A stretch of 64,000 nt of DNA from Streptomyces sp. AM 4-1-1 (GTDB lineage: Bacteria > Actinomycetota > Actinomycetes > Streptomycetales > Streptomycetaceae). Below are positions 28,997-44,456 of the stretch, in pieces. The stretch covers positions 6,820,001-6,884,000 of the forward strand of contig NZ_CP119145.1 in NCBI RefSeq assembly GCF_029167625.1. Reading direction: 5' to 3'. The notes under the pieces were generated by a model that saw nothing but the letters and a program-made list of their open reading frames with translations, made no database searches and was not told the origin of the DNA. Each line of letters opens with the position of its first letter. Positions within the stretch are counted from its first letter, which is position 1. Made by a program: the position numbers and the translations under genes.

Positions 28997-29563
28997 GCCG
29001 CACTCACTCTTCCGGAGTCCTGTTCTGTCACTTCGCACACCTGGGAGACGGGCTGCGGCCCGGACGATAACAAAAAATGGCCGACGAGCCGCAAAAGAAC
29101 GCGGAGACCGGACCGGCGGGCCGTGCCCCGCCCCTGCATCTCCCGCCCCCGCCCCGCTCCGGCGACGCGGCTCACTGCGCCGCTCCGGGCCGGGGCAGTC
29201 AGCCGAAGCGACGGAAGAGTTCCTGGAGGTAGTCCTCCAGCCTGCTGGTGAGAAGAGCCGGAGTCAGGTCGTCGCGTCCCAGCTCCCGCCAGGGCGCACA
29301 GGCTGTCGTTCACCCTGAGCTCGGTCATGGTCATGGGCATGGGTTCACGAACCGGCGCTGCCCGGAGTGCTGTGCCGAGGGGCAGAGCCGCACACCCCAC
29401 GGCGTCGGACCGCCGGACCGCCCGGCCGGGCCCTGGCGGCGGGCCGGTGTCGGTCCCGGCGACCGGTGTGGCGACCGTCACTCCGACTTCCTCGGGGGCG
29501 GTGTCGTCCGAACGCGGGGTGCCGGGCGTATGTCTGATGAGACCGAAGAGATCCAGGAGCTGA
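28997..29563. other. Intergenic region, 567 bases, between two divergent sigma-factor genes
   Basis: It carries an A+T-rich patch (around 29068-29082) likely to be part of the promoter of the sigma-CAP gene. Apart from the doubtful remnant at 29199-29334 I see no supported gene. Confidence 0.6.
29199..29334 (-). pseudogene. Possible frameshifted small ORF
   Basis: In one frame MTMTELRVNDSL begins at 29334. In the next frame an unusually protein-like tail (APWRELGRDDLTP, then LEDYLQELFRRFG) runs to a stop at 29199. A one-base change would join them into about 45 residues. There is no clear ribosome site and I recognise no family, so this is only a candidate remnant. Confidence 0.22.
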
Positions 29564-30067
29564 TTGTTGACCGTCGAGGAGTTCGAAGAGTTCTACGCGC
29601 GGACGGTCGCCCGGCTCACAGGGCAGTTGTTCGTGATGCTCGGCGATCAGCACGAGGCGCAGGACGTGGTGCAGGAGGCGTTCGTCAAGGGCTGGAGCCG
29701 ACGGCGTCAGCTCGACCGTGACGGACAGCCGGAGGCGTGGATTCGTACGGTCGCCTGGCGGCTGGCCGTGAGCCGGTGGCGTGGGCGCCGTCGCGCGGCG
29801 GATGCCTGGCAGCGCAGCGGCGCCGCGCCCCATGTGGAGCCGCCGGGTCCCGAAACTGTGGCCCTCGTGGAAGTGCTGCGGGAGCTGCCGCCCAAACAGC
29901 GCCGCACGCTGACCCTGCACTACGTGTGCGATCTGACCGTCGAACAGATCGCCTCGGAGACCGGCATCGCGGCCAGCACCGTCAAGACGCATCTGGGCCG
30001 GGGCCGGGCCACGCTCGCACGTCGTCTGCACGATCCGCGTATTGAGGAGGAGGTCCCCGGTGCCTGA
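29564..30067 (+). CDS. ECF sigma factor (SigE-like family)
   Basis: A 167-residue two-domain sigma factor. Region 2 has FEEFYARTVARLTGQL, DQHEAQDVVQEAFVKGW and EAWIRTVAWRLAVSRWR; region 4 has LPPKQRRTLTLHYVCDLTVE and GIAASTVKTHLGRGRATL. The frame has a stop just upstream and no early ATG, so it must start at a TTG, either 29564 or 29567. AGGAG lies 4 or 7 bases before these, which favours 29567. TTG starts limit expression. It overlaps the membrane protein gene that follows by 8 bases, suggesting a sigma/anti-sigma pair. Confidence 0.85.
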   Translation: MLTVEEFEEFYARTVARLTGQLFVMLGDQHEAQDVVQEAFVKGWSRRRQLDRDGQPEAWIRTVAWRLAVSRWRGRRRAADAWQRSGAAPHVEPPGPETVALVEVLRELPPKQRRTLTLHYVCDLTVEQIASETGIAASTVKTHLGRGRATLARRLHDPRIEEEVPGA

Positions 30068-30566
30068 AGCCCACGACCCGCTGCGGGCGCTGTTCCAGGA
30101 AGCCGCCGCCACCGGCCAGTCCCGCGCCCGTTCCGCGCCGCTCCCGCTCATCACCGGGCGCGGCGAAAGGCTGCGCAGGCGCAGGGCCGTCGCCCTGGCC
30201 GTCGGAGCCTGCGTGGTCCTCTCCGGTGCGGGAACGGCCGTGGCCGTGTTCCTGCCCGCCGGTCCGGGCGTCACCGTCCCGGCCACCACCCCGACGCCTC
30301 CCCGGCCTTCACCCGTACCGTCCCCGCCCCGGACCGGCTCGTCACCGACCGACAGCGTTTCCCCCTCCGAACTGTCGTCCCCCGGCGTCGGCTCACCGCC
30401 GACCGTCGCCGATTCCCCCAGCTCCCCTTCCTCTCGGACGAGTTCACCGTCGACGAGTTCACCGCCGACCGGCCTTCCGTCGACGGGCCATCCCTTCCCG
30501 GGCCGGACCACGTCGGAAGGGCCGGAAACCCCCACCCGGGACCGGAGCACCGAACCGCCTCGCTGA
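30060..30566 (+). CDS. Single-pass membrane protein, putative anti-sigma factor
   Basis: A 168-residue protein with a short cytoplasmic N-terminus (HDPLRALFQEAAATGQ), one membrane segment (about 45-62, AVALAVGACVVLSGAGTAVAV) and a long external tail made almost only of Pro, Ser and Thr. GTG 30060 has a strong AGGAGG site and lies inside the sigma gene. Overlap with an ECF sigma gene and this topology suggest an anti-sigma factor, though no zinc-binding motif is present. The tail may span or bind the cell wall. Confidence 0.65.
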   Translation: MPEAHDPLRALFQEAAATGQSRARSAPLPLITGRGERLRRRRAVALAVGACVVLSGAGTAVAVFLPAGPGVTVPATTPTPPRPSPVPSPPRTGSSPTDSVSPSELSSPGVGSPPTVADSPSSPSSRTSSPSTSSPPTGLPSTGHPFPGRTTSEGPETPTRDRSTEPPR

Positions 30567-30646
30567 TCCGTCCCCCTCCCGTCCCGTGAAGGCATGCGCC
30601 CCACGGGCCTGTTCGGCATGCGCGGAAGCGCTCCAGAAAGACCGAA

Positions 30647-31903
30647 ATGAGCCTTTCCTCTCCTCCTCGGCGTCCTGAGCGCCCATCGGTCCGAACGGGG
30701 ACGGCACCCGGGCCGTCCCGCGACCGCACCCGTCCGACGCGTTCGCGTCCGGCCGTACCGGACAGGTTTCCTGCGCGTCCCGGCCCGGCCGACCGCCAGG
30801 TGCTGTGGCTGTATCTGCTGACCCGGGTCGGTATCTGGATCACGGCCTACTGCACCTGCCGGCTGTTTCCCGGCGACCGCAGATCCCGTTACGCCGCCTC
30901 GTTCCTCTCGCCGTGGCAGCAGTGGGACTGGTGGCATTACCTGCACATAGCCCAGGACGGGTACTTCCCGGAGCCGACCGGCGGGGGAGCGGCGGCCGAC
31001 GGGGACAACAGAGAGGCGTTCTTTCCCGGCTTTCCCCTCGCGCTGCGAGCCGTCCACACCTTTGTCCCCGACTGGTCCGCCGCGGGAGCGCTGATCTCCT
31101 TCGTCGCCGGAGGCGTCGCCGTGCTGGCCCTGGCCCGGATCGCCCGGCTGTATCTGCCGGACGAGGCGGGGCAGCGCGCGGTTCTGTTCTTCCTGTTCTC
31201 CCCGTGCGCGGTCTTCCTGGCCGCCGGCTACACGGAAGCGCTCTTCCTCTCGCTGGCCCTGCCCGCCTGGCTGGCCGCCCAGCGCCTCAACTGGCCGCTC
31301 GCGGCCGTCCTGGCATGCCTGGCCACCACCGTCCGCGTCAGCGGCCTCTTCCTCTCCGCGGCCCTCGCGGTCCACTTCCTCACCACCGCCCGCTCCTCCG
31401 GCCGTTGGCGCGCCCTTCCCTGGCTGGCCCTGCCCGCTCTTCCGCCGCTTCTCCACAGCTGGTACCTGCACGCGCACACCGGCGACTGGATGGCCTGGAA
31501 ACACGCGGAGGAACGCGGCTGGTACCGCGACTTCCACGCCCCCTGGGAAGCGTGGCGGAACACCTGGCACGCCGCCTTCGGCCACTCCCAGGCCACCGGG
31601 TACGCCGTCATGGACCAGGCCGAACTCCTCACCATGCTGGTCGGCGTCGCCCTCTGCGCCCTGCTGATCCGGCGGCGACGCTGGGCCGAAGCCGTGTACA
31701 TCGGCCTCAACCTGTGGGCGCTGGGCACCTCTTACTGGTACACCTCCCTGCCCCGCGCGACGCTCCTGTGGTGGCCGCTGTGGACCGGCCTGGCCGCGTG
31801 GAGCCTGCGGCGCCCCCTCGTCAGGACCGCCTACCTCGCCATCGTGGCCCCTCTGATGACCGTCTTCGCCGTCACCTTCCTCTCCGGACGGTGGGCCGGC
31901 TGA
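30647..31903 (+). CDS. PIG-V-like membrane mannosyltransferase
   Basis: A 418-residue protein with a basic, Pro/Arg-rich N-terminal tail and about nine membrane segments. The first outer loop carries WDWWHYLHIAQDGY, the typical acidic catalytic loop of GT-C glycosyltransferases of the PIG-V/mannosyltransferase family, followed by AFFPGFPL. It would transfer a sugar from a polyprenyl-phosphate donor on the outer membrane face. A Ser/Thr-rich extracellular protein is encoded immediately upstream and is a plausible O-glycosylation target. Confidence 0.82.
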   Translation: MSLSSPPRRPERPSVRTGTAPGPSRDRTRPTRSRPAVPDRFPARPGPADRQVLWLYLLTRVGIWITAYCTCRLFPGDRRSRYAASFLSPWQQWDWWHYLHIAQDGYFPEPTGGGAAADGDNREAFFPGFPLALRAVHTFVPDWSAAGALISFVAGGVAVLALARIARLYLPDEAGQRAVLFFLFSPCAVFLAAGYTEALFLSLALPAWLAAQRLNWPLAAVLACLATTVRVSGLFLSAALAVHFLTTARSSGRWRALPWLALPALPPLLHSWYLHAHTGDWMAWKHAEERGWYRDFHAPWEAWRNTWHAAFGHSQATGYAVMDQAELLTMLVGVALCALLIRRRRWAEAVYIGLNLWALGTSYWYTSLPRATLLWWPLWTGLAAWSLRRPLVRTAYLAIVAPLMTVFAVTFLSGRWAG

Positions 31904-32142
31904 CCGCACCCGGGAATCGCTGTCCGGGGCAGCCTCCGCCGCAGGGCGGCATCCCCGCCGACTGGTCGCTCAGGGCTCGGCGGGACCGGTTCCTCCGGCG
32001 CCGGAGGACGGGGCGCGGACGCTGCGGAGCGCGCCCGGGACTCCGCAGCAGGTGTGAACACCGCGAACACCGCGGACGCCATCGCCGCGCTCCCCGCCGG
32101 CACCCCCGACGCGTGCTAGGGGAACCGCGTCCGGCGGACGAT

Positions 32143-32598
32143 TCACCGCTCGGGCGGGGGCGCGAGCAGCATCGGCCAGTCGGCATCGTCGGTGAGCACG
32201 TCGTCGAGCGTACGGTCGGGACGCGCGGTGAAGACCACGGTCCCCGGCGCCGCCCGCGCGTACGTCCCCGGGTCGACCGGGCCCTTCACGCGCAGCACCG
32301 ACGCGGCCTCCCGGTCGACCGCCGAGTGCCCGGGGAACGCCGAGACGTCCACGCCGATCCGCTCCAGCGCGTACGGGTGCACGACGACGTCGACCACCAG
32401 GCGGTCGGCGTCGAGCGTGTGCTCGGCCCAGCCGTCGGTCCGCGCCAGGAACAGGACGCCGTCGCCCTCGTAGCAGTGACCGCCGAGCCGGGCGACGGCC
32501 CGCTCGCCCGGCGGTCCGTCGGGATCGACGAGAAGCACCACGACCGGTACGTCGGGCTCGTCGGGGTTGACGCCTGGGCGGACGCTGATCCGGGCCAT
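32143..32598 (-). CDS. Conserved protein of unknown function (151 residues)
   Basis: A GGAGG site 7 bases before ATG 32598 and good codon bias support a real gene. The sequence reads as alternating beta-strands (VPVVVLLVDPDG, GDGVLFLARTDGWAEHTL, RLVVDVVVHPY), with no signal peptide, membrane segment or recognised motif. It has no operon partner on its strand. I do not recognise the family. Confidence 0.6.
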   Translation of the reverse strand: MARISVRPGVNPDEPDVPVVVLLVDPDGPPGERAVARLGGHCYEGDGVLFLARTDGWAEHTLDADRLVVDVVVHPYALERIGVDVSAFPGHSAVDREAASVLRVKGPVDPGTYARAAPGTVVFTARPDRTLDDVLTDDADWPMLLAPPPER

Positions 32599-33077
32599 GG
32601 GTGGCCTCCGGTGAGGGGTGGGGGCGAGGTGGCGCCGGCACAACGAGGTGACCGCGACCGACGCCCGCCGATGTACGGACAGCGTAGGGCGGGCCGGTGC
32701 CGGCGACCGTCCTGCCCCCGGAAAGCGGGCCGTACCGGAGCCGGCCGGCGGGGGAGACCTGATGGTGCTCGGCCTGCCTCCCGGTCCGCCACCCGGCGAC
32801 CCCCGTTCCGGCGGGCACGTACAGGCCTGGGGCCTTTCGTTCGGATCAGGCCGGGCTCTCGCGGGCTCCGGCACCGCATCTCGCGGCGGTGTCGTCGGCC
32901 GGCATGGCTTCGCACCGCCATGACTCCCTCCGCCGCCTCGCGACGCACGGCGAGCCCGCTCCCTCCTCCTCCGGCCTGATCCCGGCGAAAGGCCCCAGCT
33001 CCGCCCTCGGCTTCGTGGTCGTCGGGGGCGTTCCCGCCCTCCGGCGGCCTCGACCGGAGAAGGCGCGAAGAGCACCC
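32599..33077. other. Intergenic region upstream of the yhf-type operon
   Basis: About 480 bases between divergent genes. Open frames here lack ribosome sites and protein-like sequence; I see no gene. Confidence 0.6.
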
Positions 33078-33112
33078 TTGTCAATATCCAGAATCCTGCT
33101 TATTGTTTGATT
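33078..33112 (+). promoter_or_regulatory. Promoter of the YhfZ-type regulator, probably leaderless
   Basis: A -35-like TTGTCA (33078-33083) and a -10-like TATTGT (33101-33106) are separated by 17 bases, and the GTG start follows the -10 by 7 bases with no ribosome site. This is the layout of a leaderless transcript. CAGAATCCTG-TTA-TGTTTGATT (33089-33112) recurs before the next gene, so the regulator or a partner may bind over the -10. Confidence 0.55.
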
Positions 33113-33113
33113 C

Positions 33114-34052
33114 GTGAACGCTTTCGATGATCGTTTACTCACTCGAAACGGCCTCGCCGCCCGGCAGCTCGCCGTCCTGCTGCTCAACCACGAGCCGGAC
33201 ACCCGCCTGCCCCGCGTCCGCGACTTCGCCGAGGAGCTGGGCTGCGGAAACGGCACGGTCCAGGCGGCGCTGCAACTCCTGGAGGAGGCCGGTGCGATCG
33301 GGACCACCGCGCGCGGTCATCTCGGCACCTTCCTCGTCCACTCGGACCGCGCCGTGCTCTGGCGGGTCGCCGGACTCGGCACGCTGCTCGCGGCGATGCC
33401 CCTTCCCTACTCGCGGAGGTACGAGGGACTGGCGACCGGACTGCGCAACGCCTTCGAGGAGGCGGGCGCCCCGTTCGCCATCACCTTCATGCGTGGCGCC
33501 GGGACCCGTACCGACGCTCTGCTCGAAGGCAAGGTCGATCTCGTCGTCCTGTCCCGCTTCGCCGCCGACCGGCTGATCGCCGAACACCCCGTGGAGCTCG
33601 TCGCCGAGCTCGGCCCCGCCACCTACGTCGGGGCCCACGGCCTGCTGCTGCGACGCGGCGCCGACGTCGATTCCCCCGGTCTGCGGGTGGCGATCGACCA
33701 CGCGTCCGAGGACCAGCGGATGCTGGTCGAGCGGGCCTTCGCGGGGCGCGAGGACATCGAGTGGCTGGAGGCGTCCTACATGCAACTGCGTGATCTCTTC
33801 GCCCGTGACGAGGTCGACGCGACCGTCTGGAACCTGGACGAGGTCCAGGACCGGATAGGTTTCGCCGTCGACGTACTTCCGCTCGGTGACGAGGTCACCC
33901 GGGAGCTCGCCCTGCGCAACTCCAGTGCGGCGATCATCGGCAGGACCGACGGCGCGAAGGCCCTCGCGGCGGTGCGGGACTCGCTCGACCTCTCCCTCAT
34001 CACCTCGGCGCAGAGCGAGGTGCTGCGCGGGGAGCGCGTCCCCTCGTACTGA
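33114..34052 (+). CDS. yhfZ: YhfZ-type transcriptional regulator
   Basis: A 312-residue protein: an N-terminal GntR-like winged helix (RVRDFAEELGCGNGTVQAAL, then LLEEAGAI) followed by a substrate-binding-protein-like sensor domain (about 85-312). This is the architecture of YhfZ, regulator of the enterobacterial yhf operon, and it heads the same gene set here. The start is GTG 33114, apparently leaderless. Codon 8 is TTA (33135-33137), so translation should depend on the bldA tRNA. It probably controls the operon through the motif at 33089 and 34126; the ligand is unknown. Confidence 0.8.
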   Translation: MNAFDDRLLTRNGLAARQLAVLLLNHEPDTRLPRVRDFAEELGCGNGTVQAALQLLEEAGAIGTTARGHLGTFLVHSDRAVLWRVAGLGTLLAAMPLPYSRRYEGLATGLRNAFEEAGAPFAITFMRGAGTRTDALLEGKVDLVVLSRFAADRLIAEHPVELVAELGPATYVGAHGLLLRRGADVDSPGLRVAIDHASEDQRMLVERAFAGREDIEWLEASYMQLRDLFARDEVDATVWNLDEVQDRIGFAVDVLPLGDEVTRELALRNSSAAIIGRTDGAKALAAVRDSLDLSLITSAQSEVLRGERVPSY

Positions 34053-34125
34053 CCCCGGGGCCGCGGCCCGTACGGACCGGTGACCGACGTCTCTCCTCTT
34101 CGGCCCGTTCCACGACCTGAAAATA

Positions 34126-34148
34126 CAAAATCCTGGTTACTGTTGATT
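34126..34148 (+). promoter_or_regulatory. Second copy of the yhf promoter motif
   Basis: CAAAATCCTGGTTACTGTTGATT matches the element before yhfZ at most positions, with TACTGT aligned to the -10-like TATTGT. It lies 13 bases before the yhfY start, so yhfY-yhfW can be transcribed and regulated separately from yhfZ. Confidence 0.55.
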
Positions 34149-34161
34149 TTAGGAGGAACAG

Positions 34162-34548
34162 ATGGACGAACAACTCGCACTCCGCATCCAGCTCTTCCGT
34201 GAGGGCGGTCAGGTCAGGCCCGAGGTCGCCGGCTTCGTCACCGATGAACTGACCACCCTCGAAGCGGACGGCCGCACCGTCACCGAGGCGACCGCGGGCA
34301 TGCTGACCAGCCATCTCATGATGGCGCTCACCCGTCTGCTGGACGGCGAACCGATCGAGCAGTTCCTCACCGACGAGCAGGTCGCGGCGGAACTGGCCGG
34401 ACACCCCGACGCCGTCGCCCGCGCCCGCGCGGTCTCGGCGCGCGCCCGTGAACGGCTCGGCGCCGAGCTGCCCGAGTCCGAGATCAACTTCCTCGGTATG
34501 CATCTCGCCGTACTCGCCCAGCAGTCACCGGCCACCCCCACCTCCTGA
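34162..34548 (+). CDS. yhfY: PRD-type domain protein (YhfY-like)
   Basis: A 128-residue all-helical protein resembling a lone PTS-regulation domain: LTSHLMMALTRLLDGEPIEQ and ELPESEINFLGMHLAVLAQQ place the conserved His residues (about 51 and 112). It has no DNA-binding part, so it is probably a sensor or modulator for YhfZ. AGGAGG before ATG 34162. It is the second regulatory gene of the operon, as in enterobacteria. Confidence 0.78.
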   Translation: MDEQLALRIQLFREGGQVRPEVAGFVTDELTTLEADGRTVTEATAGMLTSHLMMALTRLLDGEPIEQFLTDEQVAAELAGHPDAVARARAVSARARERLGAELPESEINFLGMHLAVLAQQSPATPTS

Positions 34549-34601
34549 CCCGTCCGGGCGCGGTCCCGCACCCGGCGTACACACAGAGAGAAGGACCAGA
34601 C

Positions 34602-34958
34602 ATGACGAAGATCCTCACCGGCGGTGTCGGCAAGGTCGAGGTCACCGAGACGATCAAGAAGCTCGGACTCGACGGCATCGAGGTCGTCAAGTCCAGCGAC
34701 ATGGACGCCGCGATGAAGCTCCGGGTCGGACAGGCCGACTACTACCTCGGCACCTGTCACACCGGCGCCGGCGCCTCACTCGGGGTGCTCGTCGGACTGA
34801 TGGGCAACGCCGCCTGCCACACCTTCGGCCGCAGCGTCCCCACCGAGGACCAGATCACCGCTCTCCTCGCCGACGGCAAGAAGGTCTTCGGCTTCTCGAT
34901 GGACCAGATCGACACCATCGCCCCCCTCATGGCGCGCGCCATCGCCGCCCGCGGCTGA
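34602..34958 (+). CDS. yhfU: DUF2620 protein (YhfU-like)
   Basis: A 118-residue protein with TKILTGGVGKVEVTETIKKL, GIEVVKSSDMDAAMKLRVGQ and YYLGTCHTGAGASLGVL. The pattern fits DUF2620/YhfU, a small Rossmann-like protein with no known reaction. The TCHTGAG loop and acidic SSDMD suggest a ligand or nucleotide site, which is inference. It lies directly before the transporter gene, as in the enterobacterial operon. Confidence 0.8.
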   Translation: MTKILTGGVGKVEVTETIKKLGLDGIEVVKSSDMDAAMKLRVGQADYYLGTCHTGAGASLGVLVGLMGNAACHTFGRSVPTEDQITALLADGKKVFGFSMDQIDTIAPLMARAIAARG

Positions 34959-35002
34959 ACCAGCCCTCCCCCCAGTCGTTTCGGGCACGAAGGAGTGACC
35001 CA

Positions 35003-36337
35003 GTGAGTACCACACTCGCGGCCGGAGCCGGCCTCGACTTCACGTTGGCCCAGCAGCTGACCGTGATAGCGCTCTGCGCGCTGACCGCGTACATCGCGCA
35101 CATGGCCCTCGCCGTCTTCAACGACGGCGTCCGGCCGTTCATGCTGGACTTCATCCAGGGTCGCACCACCCGCAGTGCCACCACCGCCGTCTCCTTCGGC
35201 CTGTCCGCCGGCTTCATCTTCGGCCTCGGCGCGCCGATGGCCCTGTCCACCGGGGTGCTGAACCCCTGGCTGCTCTTCCTGCCCACCGACATCCTCGGCA
35301 TGCTGTCGCCGAAGAAGTGGCTCGCGCCGATCCTCGGCGGGGCCTGGGGCGCGGTCGTCGTCTTCGGACTGAACGGCGCCAACAACGTCGCGCACGATCT
35401 GCCCGTCGACTTCATCACCGCGATGCAGCAGATGTCGACGCCGATCCTCTTCCTCTTCACGCTGTTCCCGGTGCTCGCCATCACCAAGCAGTTCGGCCGC
35501 AAGTGGGGCGGACTCGCCGGGGTCCTCGAACTCGCCCTCGTCGTCCTCACCATGAAGGCCTGGCCGAACATGTTCGCCGGGGCGCTCGCCATGGCCGTCG
35601 GCGTGCTGATGCTCATCGCCCTGGCCGTCGCCAAGGACCTCAAGCAGCGCAAGGCCGACCGCGCCGAGGGCGTCACCGAGGTCGTCCTCGACGACGACCC
35701 GATGGCCTCCCTCTTCAGCGCCAGCGCGGCCCGGCTGCGCAAGTACCTGCCGCTGTTCATGGTGCTCGGCGCGGGCGTCTGCGTCCTCGCCCAGATGCAC
35801 ATATTCGGTGGCGGTGAGGCGACCAGCTTCCTGATCGCCAAGGGACAGTACGGGGAAGCCGCCCAGGTCGACTTCTACCGGGTCTTCGGCTTCATCCCGC
35901 TGATCGCGACCACCGCGCTCGCCTCCGGGGCGTACGGCATCGCGGGCTTCACCCTGGTGTACCCGATCGGCTACCTGATGCCGAACCCGTTCCTCGCCGC
36001 GATCGTCGGCGCGGTCGTGTTCGCCCTCGAAGTGCTGGCCCTGTCGTACATCGGCAAGCTCCTCGGGAAGCTGCCCAGTGTCCGTGACTCCTCGGAACAC
36101 CTGCGCAGCGCGATCAGCGAAACCCTCCAGCTCGCGATCCTCTTCGGCTCCCTGATGGCCGCCAACGCCATGGGCGGCGGGCTCGGCATCCTCGTCGTCG
36201 GCGGGCTCTACCTGCTGAACGAGGCGATGGGCCGGCCGGTCGTGAGGATGGCCGCCGCGCCCGCCGCGGTGATCGTCGGCGGAATCCTTCTCAACGTCCT
36301 GTACTGGCTCGACCTGTTCACCCCGATCAAGGGCTGA
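35003..36337 (+). CDS. yhfT: YhfT-type membrane transporter
   Basis: A 444-residue polytopic membrane protein with about eleven hydrophobic segments, and a charged cytoplasmic loop near residue 215 (KDLKQRKADRAEG). It matches the YhfT family, always found next to YhfU and thought to be the substrate carrier of this operon. The position of YhfU beside it suggests a two-part uptake system; PTS-like involvement is possible given the PRD protein, but no PTS motif is present. GTG 35003 follows AAGGAG. Confidence 0.8.
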   Translation: MSTTLAAGAGLDFTLAQQLTVIALCALTAYIAHMALAVFNDGVRPFMLDFIQGRTTRSATTAVSFGLSAGFIFGLGAPMALSTGVLNPWLLFLPTDILGMLSPKKWLAPILGGAWGAVVVFGLNGANNVAHDLPVDFITAMQQMSTPILFLFTLFPVLAITKQFGRKWGGLAGVLELALVVLTMKAWPNMFAGALAMAVGVLMLIALAVAKDLKQRKADRAEGVTEVVLDDDPMASLFSASAARLRKYLPLFMVLGAGVCVLAQMHIFGGGEATSFLIAKGQYGEAAQVDFYRVFGFIPLIATTALASGAYGIAGFTLVYPIGYLMPNPFLAAIVGAVVFALEVLALSYIGKLLGKLPSVRDSSEHLRSAISETLQLAILFGSLMAANAMGGGLGILVVGGLYLLNEAMGRPVVRMAAAPAAVIVGGILLNVLYWLDLFTPIKG

Positions 36338-36370
36338 GGCCGGACCCGTACGCCAGGAAGGAACCCCGAG

Positions 36371-37345
36371 ATGAACACCCCCACGATGAACACCCCCGCC
36401 GGCCGGCCCGTGCTCCGGACGGTGACCGGCGACCTCCCGGCCGACGCCGTACGCGGCCCCGTCCTCGCCCATGAACACCTGGTCCTCGACCTGGACCGGG
36501 CGGGCGACGGCGCCGCCGTGCTGCGCCCCGACCGCCACCTCGCCGCCGTCACCGCGGAACTGGCCGCACTGCGCCAGGAGTTCGGCCTCTCCCTGGTCGT
36601 CGAACTCACCTGCCGGGGCATGGGCCGCGACCCGCTCGCCCTGGCCCGGATCGCCCGGGACGCCCAGGTCGCCGTCGTCGCCGCGACCGGCTGGTACTAC
36701 GAGCCGTTCCACACCCCCGAGATCGACGGAAGCGGCATCGAACAGCTCACCGACACCCTCGTCGAGGAGATCACCGACGGCATCGGCGCCACCGGCGTCC
36801 GCCCCGGCGTCCTCGGCGAGATCGGCAGCCACGGCGACGTCCCCACCGCGGCCGAGACCAAGGTGCTGCGCGCCGGCGCGCGGGCCGCCACCGCCACCGG
36901 GCTCTCCGTCGCCACCCACGCACAGCTCGGTCACGGTGGACTCGCCCAGCTCGAACTGCTCACCGCCGAGGGCCTGGCACCCCACCGGATCTGCATCGGC
37001 CACCAGGACCTCCTGGACGACCCGGCCACGCACCGCGAGATCGCCGCGAGCGGGGCGTACGTCGCCTTCGACACCATCGGCAAGGACAGCTACCAGAGCG
37101 ACGGGACCCGGCTGAGACTGCTGCTCGCCCTCCTGGAGGCCGGACACGCCGACCGGGCCCTGCTCAGCTGCGACATCTCCCGCCACGGCTACCTCGTCGG
37201 CGAGGGCGGCCAGGGATACGGACACCTCTTCCGGAGCTTCCTGCCCGAACTCCGCGCGGCCGGGGTGGACGACGGACTCGTCGACCTGATGACACGCCGC
37301 AACCCGCTGCGCTTCCTGACCGGCGCGAGCACGGAGGAGAACTGA
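36371..37345 (+). CDS. php: Phosphotriesterase homology protein
   Basis: A 324-residue amidohydrolase-superfamily TIM barrel. The metal site is complete: HEH (H34, H36), Glu in LGEIGS (E150, in place of the carboxylated Lys of true phosphotriesterases), H183, H211 and D268. This Glu form is the mark of E. coli PHP, which hydrolyses neither phosphotriesters nor a known natural substrate. A lactone or ester/phosphate intermediate of the operon's pathway is likely. Translationally close to yhfS (2-base gap). Confidence 0.87.
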   Translation: MNTPTMNTPAGRPVLRTVTGDLPADAVRGPVLAHEHLVLDLDRAGDGAAVLRPDRHLAAVTAELAALRQEFGLSLVVELTCRGMGRDPLALARIARDAQVAVVAATGWYYEPFHTPEIDGSGIEQLTDTLVEEITDGIGATGVRPGVLGEIGSHGDVPTAAETKVLRAGARAATATGLSVATHAQLGHGGLAQLELLTAEGLAPHRICIGHQDLLDDPATHREIAASGAYVAFDTIGKDSYQSDGTRLRLLLALLEAGHADRALLSCDISRHGYLVGEGGQGYGHLFRSFLPELRAAGVDDGLVDLMTRRNPLRFLTGASTEEN

Positions 37346-37347
37346 CC

Positions 37348-38484
37348 ATGAGCACCCCTTCCCCCCGCACAGGACCGGCCCTCCCGCAGACCCACCCGCT
37401 CGCGACCGTCGGACTCGACGAGGCCATCGCCCAGCAGTTCCGGCTGCTGGAGTGCACGGCGGCCCACTTCGAGGGGGCCCAGCTCTTCGACGCCGACTCC
37501 GGAGTCGTCCCCGGTCTCGGCCGCCCCCGCACCACCGCCCGCGTCGAGGCCGTCCTCGCCGACTTCTTCGGCGCCGAGGACGCGGCCTTCGTCCAGGGCG
37601 CGGGAACGGGCGCGATCCGCGCCGCGCTCAACGCCGCCGTCACGGCGGGCGACCCCCTGCTCATCCACCGGGCGCCCGTCTACCGCACCACCGAGGTGAC
37701 CCTGCGCGGCATCGGAGTACGGACCGTCGAGGCCGACTTCAACGACCCCCGGGCGCTGCGCGAAACCCTCGCCTCCGGACGGTTCCGCTGGGCCTACGTC
37801 CAGCACACCCGGCAGCGGCTCGCCGACTCGTACGACCCGGGCCGGGTGCTCGCCGACTGCCGGGCGGCCGGGGTACGCACCCTCGTCGACGACAACTACG
37901 CCGTCCTGCGGGCCCCGCGCGCCGGGGTGGAACTCGGCGCGGACGCCTCCTGCTTCTCCCTCTTCAAACTGCACGGCCCGGAAGGCGTCGGCATCGTCGT
38001 CGGCGCCCGCGACCTCGTCGGGCGCGTCCGCGCGGACAACTACTCCGGCGGCGGACAGGTCCAGGGCCACCAGGCCCTCGACGCCCTGCGCGCCCTCACC
38101 CACGTACCGGTCATGTGGTCGGTGCAGTCACGGGTCGGCGCCGAGATCGCCGAACGGCTGACCGCGGGCGAGGTGGACGGCGTCGCCGAGGTGCGGATCG
38201 CCAACGCCCAGGACCGCTGCCTGCTCGTCCGGCTCGACCGGCCGGTGGCCCGCGAACTGCCCGCCGTCGCCGCGCGTTTCGGCGCCGCCCCCTACCCCGT
38301 CGGCTCCAACTCGCGCTACGAGATCGCGCCGCTCTTCTACCGGATGTCCAGCTCGGCACTGGACGACGCCCCCGAACTCGCCGACTGGACCGTGCGCATC
38401 AACCCGATGCGGGCCGGCGCGGATCTCGTCATCGACATCCTGCGCGCCTCGCTCGCCGCGCTGAACGACCAGAAGGACGACTGA
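37348..38484 (+). CDS. yhfS: PLP-dependent aminotransferase-fold enzyme (YhfS-like)
   Basis: A 378-residue fold-type I PLP protein. The PLP lysine is in SLFKLHGPEG (K207), the cofactor Asp in TLVDDNYAVL and the phosphate-binding loop in QGAGTGAIRAAL. The family is annotated as a putative aminotransferase or lyase; the Phe/His context around the Lys is like cystathionine-lyase or selenocysteine-synthase types rather than classic transaminases. It is 2 bases after php and 2 bases before yhfX, so the three are tightly coupled. Confidence 0.85.
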   Translation: MSTPSPRTGPALPQTHPLATVGLDEAIAQQFRLLECTAAHFEGAQLFDADSGVVPGLGRPRTTARVEAVLADFFGAEDAAFVQGAGTGAIRAALNAAVTAGDPLLIHRAPVYRTTEVTLRGIGVRTVEADFNDPRALRETLASGRFRWAYVQHTRQRLADSYDPGRVLADCRAAGVRTLVDDNYAVLRAPRAGVELGADASCFSLFKLHGPEGVGIVVGARDLVGRVRADNYSGGGQVQGHQALDALRALTHVPVMWSVQSRVGAEIAERLTAGEVDGVAEVRIANAQDRCLLVRLDRPVARELPAVAARFGAAPYPVGSNSRYEIAPLFYRMSSSALDDAPELADWTVRINPMRAGADLVIDILRASLAALNDQKDD

Positions 38485-38486
38485 CC

Positions 38487-39650
38487 GTGTTCCTCGACAC
38501 CGTGCTCACCCGCAACCCCGAGCTCGTCGAAGCCGCGGCCGGCCTGCACCGACGCGGTGAGATCCCGCCCGACACCTACGTCATGGACCTCGACTCGATC
38601 GAGGCCAACGCCGCCCTCCTCGCCGCCGAGGCACAGCGGCTGGGCCTCGGCCTCTGGTTCGTCGTCAAACAGTTCGGCCGCAACCCCGAACTGATCAGGG
38701 CCGTCGCCCGGCACATCCCCCGCTACGCGGCCATCGACGCCGGCGAGGCCCGCACCCTGCACGCCGCGGGCGCACGGGCCGGAAACGTCGGCCACCTGGT
38801 CCAGATCCCGCGCCGCGCCCTGCCCGAGGTGCTGGCCCGGCGCCCCGAGGCCGTCACCGTGTACGACCTCGACAACGCCCGCGCGGTCTCCGGGGCCGCC
38901 GGACGGCTGGGCTTCACGCAGGACGTCCTCGTACGTCTCGAAGGCGCCGACGGCACCGTCTACCCCGGCCAGGAGGGGGGAGTCCCGCTCGCCCGGCTGG
39001 ACACCTTCGCCGAAGCCGCCGAACAACTGCCCGGCATCCGGATCGCGGGCGTCACCGCCTTCCCCTGCGTCCTGTGCGACCCGGCGACCGGAACCCCCGC
39101 CCCGACGGCCAATCTGCTGCTCGCCGTCAAGGCCCGGGAGATCCTGGCAGCCCGGGGCCACACGGACCTCAAGCTGAGCGCCCCCAGCGCCACCTCCATG
39201 GCCTCCCTGCCGCTGCTGGCCGAAGCCGGCGCCACCCACGGCGAACCCGGCCACGCGCTGACCGGCACCACCCCGCTGCACGCGCTCGACCCGCACCAGC
39301 CGGAGAAGCCCGCGTACGTGTACGTCAGCGAGATCGCCCACACCCTCGACGATGGCCGCCCCGCCCTCTACGGCGGCGGCTTCTACGCCCGCTCCCACAT
39401 CCGCAGCGCGCTGCTGCCGCGCACCGGCGCACGCCTCGGGGTGCAGGACGCGCCCGCCGAGAACATCGACTACTACCGGCTGCTCGACGCCCCCGGCGAG
39501 GGGCAGGACATACGGCTCGGTGACACCGCGCTGCTCGCCTTCCGCACACAGATCTTCGTCACCCGCTCGACCGTCGCCGTCGTCTCCGGTCTCTCCCGGG
39601 GCGCCCCCCGGCTCAACGGGCTGTACGACGCCCAGGGCCGGGCCCTGTGA
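38487..39650 (+). CDS. yhfX: Alanine-racemase-fold PLP enzyme (YhfX-like)
   Basis: A 387-residue fold-type III PLP protein. The PLP lysine is in WFVVKQFGRN (K61), and a racemase-like barrel follows. Unlike alanine racemase it has a distinct C-terminal region ending AFRTQIFVTRSTVAVVSGLS. The family may racemise or decarboxylate an amino acid or amino-phosphate. Paired with YhfS it suggests that an amino compound is the operon's substrate. GTG 38487 is two bases after the yhfS stop. Confidence 0.83.
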   Translation: MFLDTVLTRNPELVEAAAGLHRRGEIPPDTYVMDLDSIEANAALLAAEAQRLGLGLWFVVKQFGRNPELIRAVARHIPRYAAIDAGEARTLHAAGARAGNVGHLVQIPRRALPEVLARRPEAVTVYDLDNARAVSGAAGRLGFTQDVLVRLEGADGTVYPGQEGGVPLARLDTFAEAAEQLPGIRIAGVTAFPCVLCDPATGTPAPTANLLLAVKAREILAARGHTDLKLSAPSATSMASLPLLAEAGATHGEPGHALTGTTPLHALDPHQPEKPAYVYVSEIAHTLDDGRPALYGGGFYARSHIRSALLPRTGARLGVQDAPAENIDYYRLLDAPGEGQDIRLGDTALLAFRTQIFVTRSTVAVVSGLSRGAPRLNGLYDAQGRAL

Positions 39651-39717
39651 AGCACCGGGCACAACCGTGCGAAGCGCCGGGGGAACCGTGCCGAGCACCG
39701 AAGGAAAGGAATCACTG

Positions 39718-40950
39718 ATGGCCAAGACCGTCATCGTCGTCATCGACGGGTTCGGGATCGGGGCCATGCCCGACGCGGGAGCCCTGCGCCCCGGCGACCT
39801 CACCGCCGACACCTGCGGACACGTCCTCGACCACTGCCGCGAAGCGTTCGGCCGGCCACTGCGGCTGCCGGTCCTCGGCGCCCTCGGCCTGGGCCTCGTC
39901 CATCCGCACCCGGACCTCGCCCGGCGCACCCACCTCCCGGTCGCCGCGGGCCGGGCCGCCCTCGGCTACCCCGGCGCCGACACCTTCGCGGGCCACCAGA
40001 CCATGATGGGCGCCGACTTCAGCCGGGTGACGGTGGCCCGGCTCGCCGACCACCTCGCATCCGTGACCACGGCCCTCGAAGCGGCCGGGCACCACGTCGA
40101 ACGCCTGGACGGCGGCCCGCTGCTGGTCGTCGACGGGGCGGTGCTCGTCCACGACAACCTGGAGGCCGATCCGGGCATCAACTGGAACGCGTCCGGCCGG
40201 CTGGAGGACCTGCCCTTCGACGGCATCCTCGCCATCGCCGGGACGGTACGCACGGTCGCGCCGGTCGCGCGCGTCATCGCGGTCGGCGGTCACGCGGACG
40301 CCCCGCTCCAGCGGTTCGTACGGCCCGGCGACGGAGGAACGGTCGGCCTGGACACCCCCGCCACCGGCTTCTACCGCAACGGCGGCCTCGAAGTGCGGCA
40401 CCTCGGCGCCGAACTCGACCACACCCGCCAGCTCCCCGACCTGGCCGCGGCCGCCGGAATCCCCGTCACCCTGGTCGGCAAGGCCGCCGACATCCTCGCC
40501 TGTGACGCGGCCCGCCGCCGGCCCGCCGTGCGGACCGCCGACGTCCTGTCCCACACCCTCGACGCGGTACGCGCCCCCGGCGACGCGCTCGTCGTCACCA
40601 ACGTCCAGGAGAGCGACCTGGCGGGGCATCAGCAGGACACCGAACGGTACGGACACATCCTGGAACAGACCGATGCCGGGCTCGCCGCGCTCGTGGCGTT
40701 GCTGGACAGCCCCGGCGACCGCCTCATCGTCACGGGCGACCACGGCAACGACCCGACGATCGGGCACGCCCACCACACCCGCGAGTACGTGCCCGTGCTC
40801 ATCCACCGGCCCGGCGCGGAGGGCGTGACCCGGCTGCCGGACGCGGGCAGCCTGGCCGACGTCGGCGCCACCGCCGCCGCCTCGCTGTCGCTCGACCCGG
40901 CGGGGCTCGCCAACGGCGCCGCACTGCGCCCGGACCGCCACGCCGCCTGA
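39718..40950 (+). CDS. yhfW: Phosphopentomutase-like metalloenzyme (YhfW)
   Basis: A 410-residue alkaline-phosphatase-superfamily protein of the phosphopentomutase branch. The first metal Asp is in VVIDGFGIG (D10). GADTFAGHQTMMG (87-98) corresponds to the mutase phospho-Thr loop (T89). The second metal site is VTGDHGNDPTIGH. It would move or remove a phosphate on a sugar-like compound. Together with the PLP enzymes and PHP this suggests a pathway with a phosphorylated amino-sugar or similar; that is inference. AAGGAAAGGA precedes ATG 39718. Confidence 0.84.
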   Translation: MAKTVIVVIDGFGIGAMPDAGALRPGDLTADTCGHVLDHCREAFGRPLRLPVLGALGLGLVHPHPDLARRTHLPVAAGRAALGYPGADTFAGHQTMMGADFSRVTVARLADHLASVTTALEAAGHHVERLDGGPLLVVDGAVLVHDNLEADPGINWNASGRLEDLPFDGILAIAGTVRTVAPVARVIAVGGHADAPLQRFVRPGDGGTVGLDTPATGFYRNGGLEVRHLGAELDHTRQLPDLAAAAGIPVTLVGKAADILACDAARRRPAVRTADVLSHTLDAVRAPGDALVVTNVQESDLAGHQQDTERYGHILEQTDAGLAALVALLDSPGDRLIVTGDHGNDPTIGHAHHTREYVPVLIHRPGAEGVTRLPDAGSLADVGATAAASLSLDPAGLANGAALRPDRHAA

Positions 40951-41012
40951 ACCCCGGACAGGACCGAACACCCCGCCGCCGCCCGCCTCCCGGTGGTCCG
41001 CGGCGCCGGTCC

Positions 41013-41030
41013 GGCTCCCGCCAGGGAGCC
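41013..41030 (+). terminator. Terminator of the yhf-type operon
   Basis: GGCTCCC (41013-41019) and GGGAGCC (41024-41030) form a 7-bp stem with a 4-base loop, about 60 bases after the yhfW stop. Confidence 0.5.
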
Positions 41031-41123
41031 CAACCGGGCCGCGCCCCGGGCGCGTTGGCCGTGCGCGGCACGGTCGCGGTCGCCGGTCCGCCGGACCGCG
41101 CGGCCGCCGGATGTGGCACAGTC

Positions 41124-42956
41124 GTGCCGGTGGACGTGCTGCGACCCCAGGACCCCCCGCGCATAGGCGCCTATCAGCTTCTCGCCCGCCTCGGCGCGGG
41201 CGGCATGGGACAGGTCTATCTCGGCCGGTCGCCCGGCGGACGGCTGGTGGCCGTGAAGGTGATCCGGGACGAGATCAGCGATCACCCCGATGCCCTGGCC
41301 CGGTTCCGCCGGGAGGCGGCGACCGTGGAGACCGTGCGCAGCGCCTACACCGCCCAGCTGATCGAGGCATCGCTCGACACGGCTCCGTACTGGCTGGCCA
41401 CCGAGTACGTGGCGGGACCCACGCTGCGCGGCGCCGTGGCCACGGGCGGACCGTTCCCGCCGGACAGCGCGCTGCGGCTGCTCGCCGCGCTCGCAGAGGG
41501 GCTCGCCGCGGTGCACGTCCACGGGGTGACCCACCGGGACCTGAAACCGCAGAACGTCATCCTCTCGTCCCAGGGCCCGCAGCTCATCGACTTCGGGATC
41601 GCCCGGGGGCTCGGACAGACGGTCCTCACCCGGGACGGGGCCGCCCCGGGAACACCCGGATACGCGGCGCCCGAGGTCGTCCTGCGCAACGAGGTCGGCC
41701 CGGCGGCGGACGTCTTCGCGCTGGGGGCGACGCTGGCGTACACGGCGACCGGACGGCCCCCGTACGGAGCGGGTGACGCGATGGTGGTGAGCTACCGGGC
41801 CGTGCACGAGGACATCGACGTGGCCGGGGTGCGGGCCGATCTGGCCGCGCTCATCCGACGGTGTGTCGCCAAGGACCCCGCGGACCGGCCGGACCCCGCC
41901 ACCGTGATCGCCGGGTGCGCGGTGGACTCGGTGCTGGCGGCGGACACCCACTACCGCTCGCTGGTCCGGGAAGCGGGATTCGCGCCCGTACCCGTACCGG
42001 GAGAGGTGAGCGCGCCGCCCTCGTCCTCCGGCGCGCACCGCCCAGCCGGCGGCGTGCACGACCCCGCCGAGCCGGAACACGGGGCCGGCGCCGCGCCCGT
42101 GTCCGCGCCTGGGACCGGGGCCCGGACCCGGCCGCTGGACCGGGAGCGGGCCGAGGCCGGGCCGGTGGACGAGATCCCGTCGGGGCCCGTGCCCCGGGAC
42201 GCGCCCGGCACCACCCCGTACGACCGGCCGGAGCGGTCGCCACGGCCCGCCCGCACCCGTCGCAGGGCCTGGCTCGCGGCGGGCGCGGTGGCCGTCGCGG
42301 CGGCGGGGACGGTCCGGCTGCTGACCGGCCAGGACCACCATGGTGCGGCCGCCGCGCCCACGGCCGGGGTCACCGCCTCCGGGCCACCGGCCGCGTCGAG
42401 TGCGGCGACGGCCCGCCCGGCCGCCGGACCGCCGGACCACATCCTGAACGGCCGGATCTCGCAGGACCGCTGGTCGCTGTCGGACGATCCGGCGGAGGCC
42501 GCCCAGGGCATGGGTTCCTGCGATCTGGCGGGTCTCGCCGAGTCGTCACCCCCGTCGGGGCTGCGGTCCTCCGTCTCGCACACCACCGGCTCGGACACCG
42601 CCACGGTGGCACTGCGCCCGAAGGACGCGGGACAGGGAAAGCGGCCCGAGCCGTACTACCTGGCGGTGGGCGTACGGCCCCCGCACGAGACGGACCGCGC
42701 CACCGGCCGGCCCACGGCGGCCGCCGCGAAGGGCATCGGCTTCACCAGCAGGCCCGTCGACCTCTTCGCCAAGTGGTCCTCGGGCGGAACCATCACACTC
42801 AAGTATCCCGACGACTTCCGCGCCCACTTCGGCGAGCGGACCGTCGACGCGATCCCGGTGGGCGACGACCGGGGCGACTGGACCGTGGTGCTCTACCACG
42901 TCGAGGGCGGTCCCGAGGACTACACCTCCGTCGTGTGCAACGGTTTCCACGCCTGA
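41124..42956 (+). CDS. Membrane Ser/Thr protein kinase (PknB-like) with extracellular domain
   Basis: About 610 residues. The kinase domain has LGAGGMGQVY, Lys45 in VAVKVI, THRDLKPQN (D139), IDFGIA (D156) and YAAPEV. A Pro/Arg-rich juxtamembrane region, one membrane segment (about 390-408) and an external domain follow, with two Cys (in SCDLAG and VVCNGF) probably forming a disulphide. It autophosphorylates and signals from outside to cytoplasm. The start is GTG 41124 or GTG 41130; no clear ribosome site. It is monocistronic, with no obvious substrate partner. Confidence 0.87.
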   Translation: MPVDVLRPQDPPRIGAYQLLARLGAGGMGQVYLGRSPGGRLVAVKVIRDEISDHPDALARFRREAATVETVRSAYTAQLIEASLDTAPYWLATEYVAGPTLRGAVATGGPFPPDSALRLLAALAEGLAAVHVHGVTHRDLKPQNVILSSQGPQLIDFGIARGLGQTVLTRDGAAPGTPGYAAPEVVLRNEVGPAADVFALGATLAYTATGRPPYGAGDAMVVSYRAVHEDIDVAGVRADLAALIRRCVAKDPADRPDPATVIAGCAVDSVLAADTHYRSLVREAGFAPVPVPGEVSAPPSSSGAHRPAGGVHDPAEPEHGAGAAPVSAPGTGARTRPLDRERAEAGPVDEIPSGPVPRDAPGTTPYDRPERSPRPARTRRRAWLAAGAVAVAAAGTVRLLTGQDHHGAAAAPTAGVTASGPPAASSAATARPAAGPPDHILNGRISQDRWSLSDDPAEAAQGMGSCDLAGLAESSPPSGLRSSVSHTTGSDTATVALRPKDAGQGKRPEPYYLAVGVRPPHETDRATGRPTAAAAKGIGFTSRPVDLFAKWSSGGTITLKYPDDFRAHFGERTVDAIPVGDDRGDWTVVLYHVEGGPEDYTSVVCNGFHA

Positions 42957-42967
42957 CCGGGGCACGG

Positions 42968-42985
42968 CCCGGCTCCCCGGCCGGG
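42968..42985 (+). terminator. Hairpin after the kinase gene
   Basis: CCCGGC (42968-42973) and GCCGGG (42980-42985) with a 6-base loop, eleven bases after the stop. Confidence 0.45.
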
Positions 42986-43098
42986 AGAACCGACCGCCGG
43001 ATACGGTGACGGCACATTTATCGCATCTGTCCGAATGGCGAGTGATGTGCCGGGTACCCGACACCCTCGGCAGATCGATTCTCCACGCTGGAGGAGCC

Positions 43099-44313
43099 AT
43101 GGAACTCGCACCTCTCGCCCCCCTGTACGAACGCCCGGGACCGTGGGCGACCGTCTACGTCGACACTTCCGTCGCGGACGAGGCCACCCTCGACCGCCGC
43201 GCGCTCCAGGCCCGTCAGATCGGCCGGGAACTCGCCGGGCAGGGCGCCGACGACGCCACCTGCCGCGCGGTCGAGGACACCGTCGGCTCGTACTCGTACG
43301 GGGAGGGCGCCGCCGGGCACGCGGTCTTCGCCACGCACGGCGAGGTGGTGCTCGACCCCGTCCTGAGCCTGCGCCCGCCCGCCGAGCTGTCCAGCACCTG
43401 GGCCGCGCTGCCGCACGTCGCACCGCTGCTGACGCTGGCCCCCGACGAGCCGGACTGTCTCGTCGCCCGCATCGACCGGACGGGCGCCGATCTCGAACTG
43501 CGCACCCCGGTCTCCAGCCGCTCCGCCGGGCAGGTGACCGGCAGGACCTGGCCGATGCACCGGACCGCGACCGCCGACTGGTCCGAACGGCACTTCCAGC
43601 TGAGCGTCGAGAACACCTGGGAGCAGAACGCCAGGACCATCGCGACGGCCATCGAGGAGTGCCGGACGGAGACCGGCGCCGGCCTGGTCGTCCTGGCCGG
43701 TGACACGAGGGAGCGCCGCTCCGTCCACGAGCATCTGCGGCACCTGCCCGCCGACGTGGTCGAGACCGATCACGGAGGCCGGGCCGCGGGCTCGGAGACC
43801 CACCTCCTCGACGAGGCGATCGAAGCGCACCGGCACGCGCTCACCCGCCGCCGGACCGCCGACGGGCTGGAACGCTTCCGGGCCGCCAGGAGCCGCGCGG
43901 GCGGCACGACCGACGCCGCCGAGGGGGTCCCCGCACTGATCGAAGCGGCCCGCGAGCACCGTATCGACACGCTCTACCTCAAGCCGGACGGGCCGGACGC
44001 CCACCGGGAGGTGTGGGCGGGGCCCGGCCCCGACCAGCTCGCCCTTCGTCGCACCGACGTCCGGTACCTCGGCGAGCCGGAACCCTTCGCCGTACGCGCC
44101 GACGACGCCCTGGTCCGTTCGGCGGCGATGGCCGGGGCGGACGTGATCCTCGTACGTCCCGATCTCGACCCGGCGACCGACGCGTCCCACGACCTCGACG
44201 CCCGGCCCGGCACGGCCGAGGAGGGCACGCACGTGCCCGAGGGCGGTCTGGGAGCCCTGCTGCGCGGACCCGAGGCGGGGGAGCACCCGCGGTACGAGGA
44301 GGGCACCGGATGA
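43099..44313 (+). CDS. Rv2629 / Vms1-like (bacterial eRF1-related) protein
   Basis: A 404-residue protein of the mycobacterial Rv2629 family. It starts LAPLYERPGPWATVYVD and has a central ENTWEQNARTIATAIEEC and a C-terminal L7Ae/eRF1-like part (LVRSAAMAGADVILV). The family is related to eukaryotic Vms1/ANKZF1 peptidyl-tRNA hydrolases and eRF1 and is linked to dormancy and ribosome rescue. A role in handling stalled ribosomes under stress is an inference; the ClpC-like unfoldase encoded next would fit. GGAGGA precedes ATG 43099. Confidence 0.78.
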   Translation: MELAPLAPLYERPGPWATVYVDTSVADEATLDRRALQARQIGRELAGQGADDATCRAVEDTVGSYSYGEGAAGHAVFATHGEVVLDPVLSLRPPAELSSTWAALPHVAPLLTLAPDEPDCLVARIDRTGADLELRTPVSSRSAGQVTGRTWPMHRTATADWSERHFQLSVENTWEQNARTIATAIEECRTETGAGLVVLAGDTRERRSVHEHLRHLPADVVETDHGGRAAGSETHLLDEAIEAHRHALTRRRTADGLERFRAARSRAGGTTDAAEGVPALIEAAREHRIDTLYLKPDGPDAHREVWAGPGPDQLALRRTDVRYLGEPEPFAVRADDALVRSAAMAGADVILVRPDLDPATDASHDLDARPGTAEEGTHVPEGGLGALLRGPEAGEHPRYEEGTG

Positions 44314-44456
44314 GATCCGGCGGCACCGGCGACCACCGAGCCCGGGGCCCGGACCGGCCCGGGGTGTGAGCCCGCACGGGCACCGGTGGCGCTGACACCG
44401 CGGTCTCCGGAAGCGAAGCGAGCCGCGACGCGGTCGCGGCAGCGGAACGGACACAG

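Follow-up and report, generated by a model that had tools for sequence, protein, structure and literature searches.

The closest described system is the yhfZYXW-php-yhfUTS operon of Escherichia coli K-12 (b3383–b3376), eight adjoining genes with no substrate assigned in the literature that we searched. Among the matches listed, the passages on these genes offer little on function: the yhfW mutant was dropped for inconsistent replicates in one study (PMC5293155), yhfW is listed for a reaction at E 0.47, which gives no support, in another (PMC3423039), a third simply names the operon in a list (PMC4448311), and the excerpt describing a Lactobacillus rhamnosus clade with DUF2620, PRD, YhfX and phosphotriesterase genes does not state their function (PMC7513527). 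Here we analyse the corresponding locus of Streptomyces sp. AM 4-1-1 within a stretch of 64,000 nucleotides (contig NZ_CP119145.1, positions 6,820,001 to 6,884,000), hereafter the window, to which all coordinates refer unless a locus is named. Eight closely spaced genes, all on the (+) strand and spanning 33114–40950, make up a real, co-conserved operon of catabolic type; the kind of operon is already known, from E. coli onward, and the Streptomyces copy is a further member. We propose, with a probability of roughly 0.4, that the operon imports and catabolises an amino-sugar-type phosphorylated compound, ending in glucosamine-6-phosphate.

Eight yhf families in one Streptomyces operon

Pfam and NCBIfam profiles call the eight genes, in order, YhfZ, PRD, DUF2620, YhfT, PTE, YhfS-like, YhfX-like and PRK12383 phosphopentomutase-like. 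All eight yhf families are therefore present, in the order Z-Y-U-T-php-S-X-W and with a single direction of transcription. The initial annotation had equated these genes with the enterobacterial yhf set, and profiles together with BLAST and MAFFT recover homologues of all eight E. coli genes. Seven of the eight window proteins share 34–48% identity with their E. coli K-12 counterparts; for the PRD protein, BLAST gave no match to E. coli YhfY and a MAFFT alignment was obtained. The same annotation had proposed checking whether the genes are conserved together elsewhere, which they are: all eight occur in 60 of 98 untruncated loci, and X, U, T and Y occur jointly in 93. Its remark that the substrate is not known to be established agrees with our literature searches, which yielded none. 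Its view that the order had been reorganised into one direction with the regulators first must be abandoned, since the E. coli operon likewise holds all eight families in one direction behind its regulators, differing in the order of the last six genes (Z-Y-X-W-php-U-T-S), and the Streptomyces order is common in Bacillota. Nor is the system undescribed as far as annotation goes, as NCBI already names YhfT in many Streptomyces, under the label 'YhfT family protein'.

The first gene (33114..34052, +, GTG start) encodes a yhfZ-like regulator with HTH_41 and YhfZ_C regions, scoring 207.6 bits to Pfam YhfZ_C and 346 bits to NCBIfam YhfZ_full; the full-length YhfZ model and HTH_41 are above their curated cut-offs, with Pfam GntR just below (26.2 bits, cut-off 27). 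The yhfY-like small PRD protein (34162..34548, +) barely exceeds the Pfam PRD cut-off (24.1 bits against 23), and is followed by the yhfU/DUF2620 gene (34602..34958, +), the product of which has a predicted RpiB-like fold. The yhfT gene (35003..36337, +, GTG start; Pfam YhfT 517.7 bits) encodes a candidate permease with many hydrophobic stretches in its hydropathy profile and no sequence match in the PDB. Next come a php (yhfV)-like phosphotriesterase-family metal hydrolase (36371..37345, +; Pfam PTE 213.8 bits), a yhfS-like pyridoxal 5'-phosphate (PLP) enzyme of the aminotransferase-V or Cys-Met type (37348..38484, +; YhfS-like_C 146 bits) and a yhfX-like PLP enzyme of the alanine-racemase type (38487..39650, +, GTG start; YhfX-like_C 87.5 bits). 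The last gene (39718..40950, +) encodes a yhfW-like phosphopentomutase-type mutase (NCBIfam PRK12383 450 bits). Solved E. coli-type relatives exist for YhfZ (2ozz), YhfX (4kbx, its sole solved match), YhfS (4j8l, the closest) and Php (1bf6 and 4lef, the closest).

Residues to which we assign active-site roles, presumed from known families, are strongly conserved. In Php, the six presumed metal ligands are found in 114 of 114 aligned sequences, as are Lys238, Tyr241 and Arg247, with Arg271 in 113; these last four residues would suit a phosphate. YhfX keeps Lys61 in 102/102 and YhfY keeps His51 in 111/111 aligned sequences. All 92 YhfW sequences have the presumed nucleophile, as Thr in 87 and as Ser in 5, and their presumed metal ligands are invariant. 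The protein resembles phosphopentomutase DeoB, and matches solved phosphopentomutases, but reaches only 136 bits to PRK05362 (cut-off 256) and 119 to TIGR01696 (cut-off 341); the intact nucleophile and metal site are consistent with an enzyme of phosphopentomutase type.

Neighbours and relatives that hint at amino sugars

A nagB gene, scoring above the TIGR00502 cut-off, separates yhfW from yhfU in Vibrio comitans (L066) and comes directly after yhfW in a Bacillota genome (G605); both genomes carry two additional nagB elsewhere. When 930 neighbours were clustered, nagB was the sole family that was listed, for two lineages belonging to different phyla, inside the operon or no more than 30 bases from it in the same orientation. 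A Bacillota amidase was the other close family; of 16 untruncated Bacillota loci, 11 carry its gene in addition to the yhf set. This clustering took neighbours of at least 110 amino acids within 6 kb, from loci other than L002, L010, L011, L017 and the 3-kb hit loci L093–L108 and L121–L150, and listed the ten nearest members per family; families lacking a profile call were named by eye. Taking three nagB copies and an assumed number of genes, we put the chance that nagB lands within or next to any one operon, as a rough and uncomputed estimate, at ~0.5–1% per genome. Profiles also place murQ and mupG before yhfZ in L154; the same position is taken by mupG with a broken murQ-like frame in L152 and by a mupG piece in L112, mupG is 2.6 kb off in L151, and nagA follows the operon in L153 and L154. 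All of these murQ, mupG and nagA neighbours come from one Bacillota order.

The predicted structure of YhfU has the fold of ribose-5-phosphate isomerase B (RpiB), the 23 best rows of the comparison being RpiB-type and covering 107–112 of 118 residues at 2.5–2.9 Å. Folds of the IIB component of the phosphoenolpyruvate-dependent phosphotransferase system (PTS) also match, ranked beneath all 23, and we reject YhfU as a PTS IIB on that ground. Foldseek returned RpiB, followed by many generic alpha/beta folds (flavodoxins, cobalamin domains and receivers) at E 0.001–0.03. Cys52, invariant in 55 sequences, aligns with Cys66 of E. coli RpiB, at an hhalign probability of only 4–5% (E 0.01 and 0.0025), and with a cysteine of 2ppw (E 0.55). 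YhfU shares with RpiB/LacAB the predicted fold and, in this alignment, the active-site cysteine and a glycine-rich loop. It is shorter, and shows no counterpart of the CDH motif at the N-terminus of E. coli RpiB or of the tail at its C-terminus. Because the N-terminal Asp-His and the presumably phosphate-binding C-terminal arginines of RpiB, whose roles we assume here, are absent from YhfU in the alignment to the E. coli protein, we file YhfU as a fold relative and not as an isomerase.

YhfU also appears to be a distant relative of SFCGS. Comparison of the two profiles gave E 3e-4 with a probability of 40% over 107 columns, and two divergent YhfU proteins weakly match Pfam SFCGS (L119, E 0.001; L151, E 0.037), both under the curated cut-off; the window YhfU has no SFCGS row in the Pfam search. 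One Bacillota genome (G763, L178) encodes SFCGS with a PRD regulator, a small PRD protein, an amidohydrolase, DUF4312, DUF4311, DUF4310, a SelA/DgaE-like PLP enzyme and a KDGP aldolase, the small PRD protein scoring slightly below the Pfam threshold. Glucosaminate-6-phosphate is the compound on which DgaE and its aldolase act in Salmonella. Between YhfS and the DgaE-like protein there is a similarity at E 3e-5, which may reflect only the shared PLP fold. The two operons are alike in their small PRD protein, PRD regulator, related YhfU and SFCGS proteins, membrane proteins, PLP enzyme and metal hydrolase family, but the KDGP aldolase has no yhf counterpart, and YhfX and YhfW were not recognised in L178. 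A search of the literature on DUF7916, SFCGS and DUF4310–4312 gave nothing usable among the matches listed. Separately, one SFCGS operon (L181) has a gene for PTS enzyme I close by.

The fold of YhfU and its link to SFCGS, along with the nagB, murQ and nagA neighbours, may mark an uptake module of a new type. Tentatively, and with a good deal of doubt, YhfT-YhfU-YhfY and SFCGS/DUF4310–4312 could be two branches of one such module, comprising a permease, a small RpiB-fold cysteine protein and a small PRD protein, for amino-sugar acids or phosphates that are then broken down by PLP enzymes. In such a module, binding of the incoming sugar, its isomerisation or its phosphorylation would fall to the RpiB-like protein. 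That YhfT is a fused DUF4310–DUF4311 protein is weakly excluded, the YhfT profile showing no similarity to either family in comparisons with thin profiles (3 and 4 rows).

A proposed pathway and its alternatives

The nagB genes among the yhf genes, the murQ, mupG and nagA neighbours, the sugar-phosphate-isomerase fold of YhfU, the SFCGS relation and the conserved residues of YhfW and Php together suggest the following scheme. The operon would be inducible, with YhfZ repressing from two 18-base elements until a ligand binds its C-terminal domain, and with YhfY making expression or transport responsive to the cell's phosphorylation state. YhfT and its small RpiB-like partner YhfU would take the compound up and handle it first. 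YhfX, with YhfS where present, would perform PLP chemistry of the lyase or racemase type at the amino-bearing carbon; Php, joined by the amidase in many Bacillota, would remove an acyl, amide or lactone group; and YhfW would shift the phosphate from the 1- to the 5- or 6-position. The product would join the glucosamine-6-phosphate pool, from which NagB would yield fructose-6-phosphate and ammonia by deamination. The initial annotation had envisaged degradation of a phosphorylated amino compound; the conserved mutase residues of YhfW and the two genomes in which nagB stands amid yhf genes are consistent with such a putative substrate.

Several observations weigh against the amino-sugar pathway. 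No kinase was recognised in the operon, and most yhf operons have no adjoining amino-sugar gene. The independent events are few, as nagB lies among yhf genes in two genomes only and the murQ, mupG and nagA neighbours belong to a single order. A trpS-like gene likewise recurs beside the operon in two lineages, as one of 21 neighbour families that recur in at least two lineages, mostly at kilobase distances and with no evident sense (trpS-like genes, response regulators, transporters). A fixed linear pathway is moreover made doubtful by lineages in which enzymes are absent: none of 24 Vibrionaceae loci and none of 9 Yersinia-group loci carry yhfS, yhfW occurs in only 2 of the latter 9, and php is missing from some loci.

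The substrate might instead be a phosphorylated amino compound other than an amino sugar, for instance an amino-acid or amino-alcohol phosphate, with nagB and murQ being incidental. An enzyme set with conserved sites, made up of two PLP enzymes, a mutase that moves phosphate and a metal hydrolase, would serve such a compound too, and the common core of X, U, T and Y agrees with it. We consider this rather unlikely, however, as sugars are indicated by the RpiB-like YhfU, by its relation to SFCGS, which neighbours a DgaE-like enzyme and KDGP aldolase, and by nagB amid yhf genes.

Another reading, which we judge unlikely, casts YhfT as IIC-like, YhfU as IIB-like and YhfY as the PRD regulator of a phosphoenolpyruvate-dependent, PTS-like permease, so that uptake phosphorylates the substrate. 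Enzyme I is present in 33 of 34 yhf carriers and HPr in all 34, but both are common anyway and their presence says little. The carrier with no enzyme I match is a single-contig Streptomyces genome (G044) that has HPr and a complete operon at 72–84% identity, which speaks against a strict need for the PTS and weakens the case for an obligatory one; Cys52 of YhfU, furthermore, sits at the position of the RpiB cysteine and not at that which we take to be the IIB position. The YhfT of this same genome (L182:4937–6505) has a mid-protein low-complexity insert rich in Thr and Ala.

Least probable, and in our view improbable, is a cell-wall salvage operon dedicated to an amino sugar derived from muropeptides, or to the D-amino-acid portion: the flanking murQ, mupG and nagA of related Bacillota, the frequent Bacillota amidase and the alanine-racemase-type N-domain of YhfX would agree with it, but the supporting neighbours come from one order only, and no N-acetylmuramic acid gene was recognised by eye among the listed neighbours of the window, Vibrio and enteric loci. 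The proposed amino-sugar pathway, through the YhfU fold, the SFCGS/DgaE-like link and the nagB, murQ and nagA neighbours, offers a concrete candidate substrate class for both the E. coli and the Streptomyces operons.

Gene order, origin and candidate operators

The YhfT marker was found in 10 of 120 relatives and in 2 of 396 genomes of a phylum sample, the source genome being included in both counts; all positives are Streptomyces, within which the distribution is patchy. DUF2620 was found in 12/398 genomes of a Bacillota sample, 21/131 of a Vibrionaceae sample and 1/274 of a gammaproteobacterial class sample, and in 6/24 and 2/5 genomes of two Bacillota orders, each count including genomes already known to carry it. 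Among loci from named genomes, the commonest order is Z-Y-X-W-php-U-T-S (32 enteric loci), followed by Z-Y-php-U-T-X-W, without S, in nine Vibrionaceae loci and Z-Y-X-php-U-T, without S and W, in eight Yersinia loci; Paludifilum (L069) has the Streptomyces order, and the remaining patterns are single or few. Because the order varies among lineages, that of E. coli is not treated as defining for the operon. In the 17 Bacillota regions (L069, L109–L119 and L151–L155), 12 have the Streptomyces order if the extra amidase gene is disregarded, the order in L112 is the same minus php, and L110, L115, L116 and L119 differ; a reorganised order as an actinobacterial feature is therefore rejected. Gene calls in the loci follow a simple longest-open-reading-frame model, which performs badly where GC content is high, as in L179 and L110. 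In two genomes of the Vibrionaceae (L159/L160 and L162/L163) the genes fall into two groups, Z-Y-php-U-T and U-T-X-W, so that U and T stay paired although the enzymes have come apart.

In a midpoint-rooted tree of YhfT and YhfX from 39 loci, six Streptomyces sequences form one clade (support 1.0) joined to 13 Bacillota loci (0.964), which suggests that Streptomyces acquired the operon once, from a Bacillota-type source. Paludifilum clusters with the gammaproteobacteria, away from Streptomyces, despite the identical gene order. Some loci depart from the usual composition: Yersinia proxima (L120) has a second, divergent set Y-X-W-U-T, without yhfZ, php and yhfS, and Streptomyces sp. col6 (L087) has U, T, php, S, X and W, with no adjoining yhfZ or yhfY found. 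A Vibrionaceae genome (G1298, L157/L158) carries two yhf sets side by side with, by eye, a lactose/cellobiose-type PTS cluster between them; its two DUF2620 genes lie ~13 kb apart on one contig, and such pairs also appear among the matches in G1282 and G1219.

Two candidate operators were identified in the window. The first, an imperfect 18-base dyad as judged by eye (TATCCAGAATCCTGCTTA; 33085..33102, +; core at 33092), lies just upstream of yhfZ, and the second copy of the element (34122..34139, +) lies upstream of yhfY. The common form of the near-dyad before yhfZ is TATCCAGAATCCTGGTTA. Since the search pattern was built from these two sites, the 2 matches in the window against 0 expected are circular, and support rests on conservation: allowing at most 2 mismatches to a 16-base core pattern, both copies are present in 14 of the 16 Streptomyces loci that extend upstream of yhfZ. 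In nine short Streptomyces loci with the yhfZ–yhfY gap (L001, L003–L009 and L013), the yhfY copy is without mismatch in L001, L003, L004 and L005. The exceptions argue against an operator role: L080 has only a poor copy and L085 the first copy only, the yhfY copy is poor in L013, and none is seen in L006–L009. YhfZ may bind these elements. No riboswitch was matched in Rfam at the gathering threshold across positions 30000–45000.

Further genes were noted around the operons. In enteric bacteria trpS adjoins the yhf operon; one Bacillota genome has a trpS-like gene, recognised by eye, behind its operon (L117:17019–18023). In Vibrio comitans (L066:1584–5295), php is separated from the Y-X-W-nagB-U-T set by genes that read, by eye, as a sulfatase, an anaerobic sulfatase-maturating enzyme and a small outer-membrane-type protein. 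Pfam places lactose/cellobiose-family PTS IIA, IIB and IIC genes and a DUF7916 protein near the operon in L165 (12675–15567), and genes of this PTS family often stand beside Vibrionaceae yhf loci, some being recognised by eye also in L157, L161, L164, L169, L058 and L064. Elsewhere in the window, an open reading frame at 27395–29038 (−) reads by eye as an ECF-type sigma factor linked by a membrane stretch to a CAP/SCP-like C-terminal domain.

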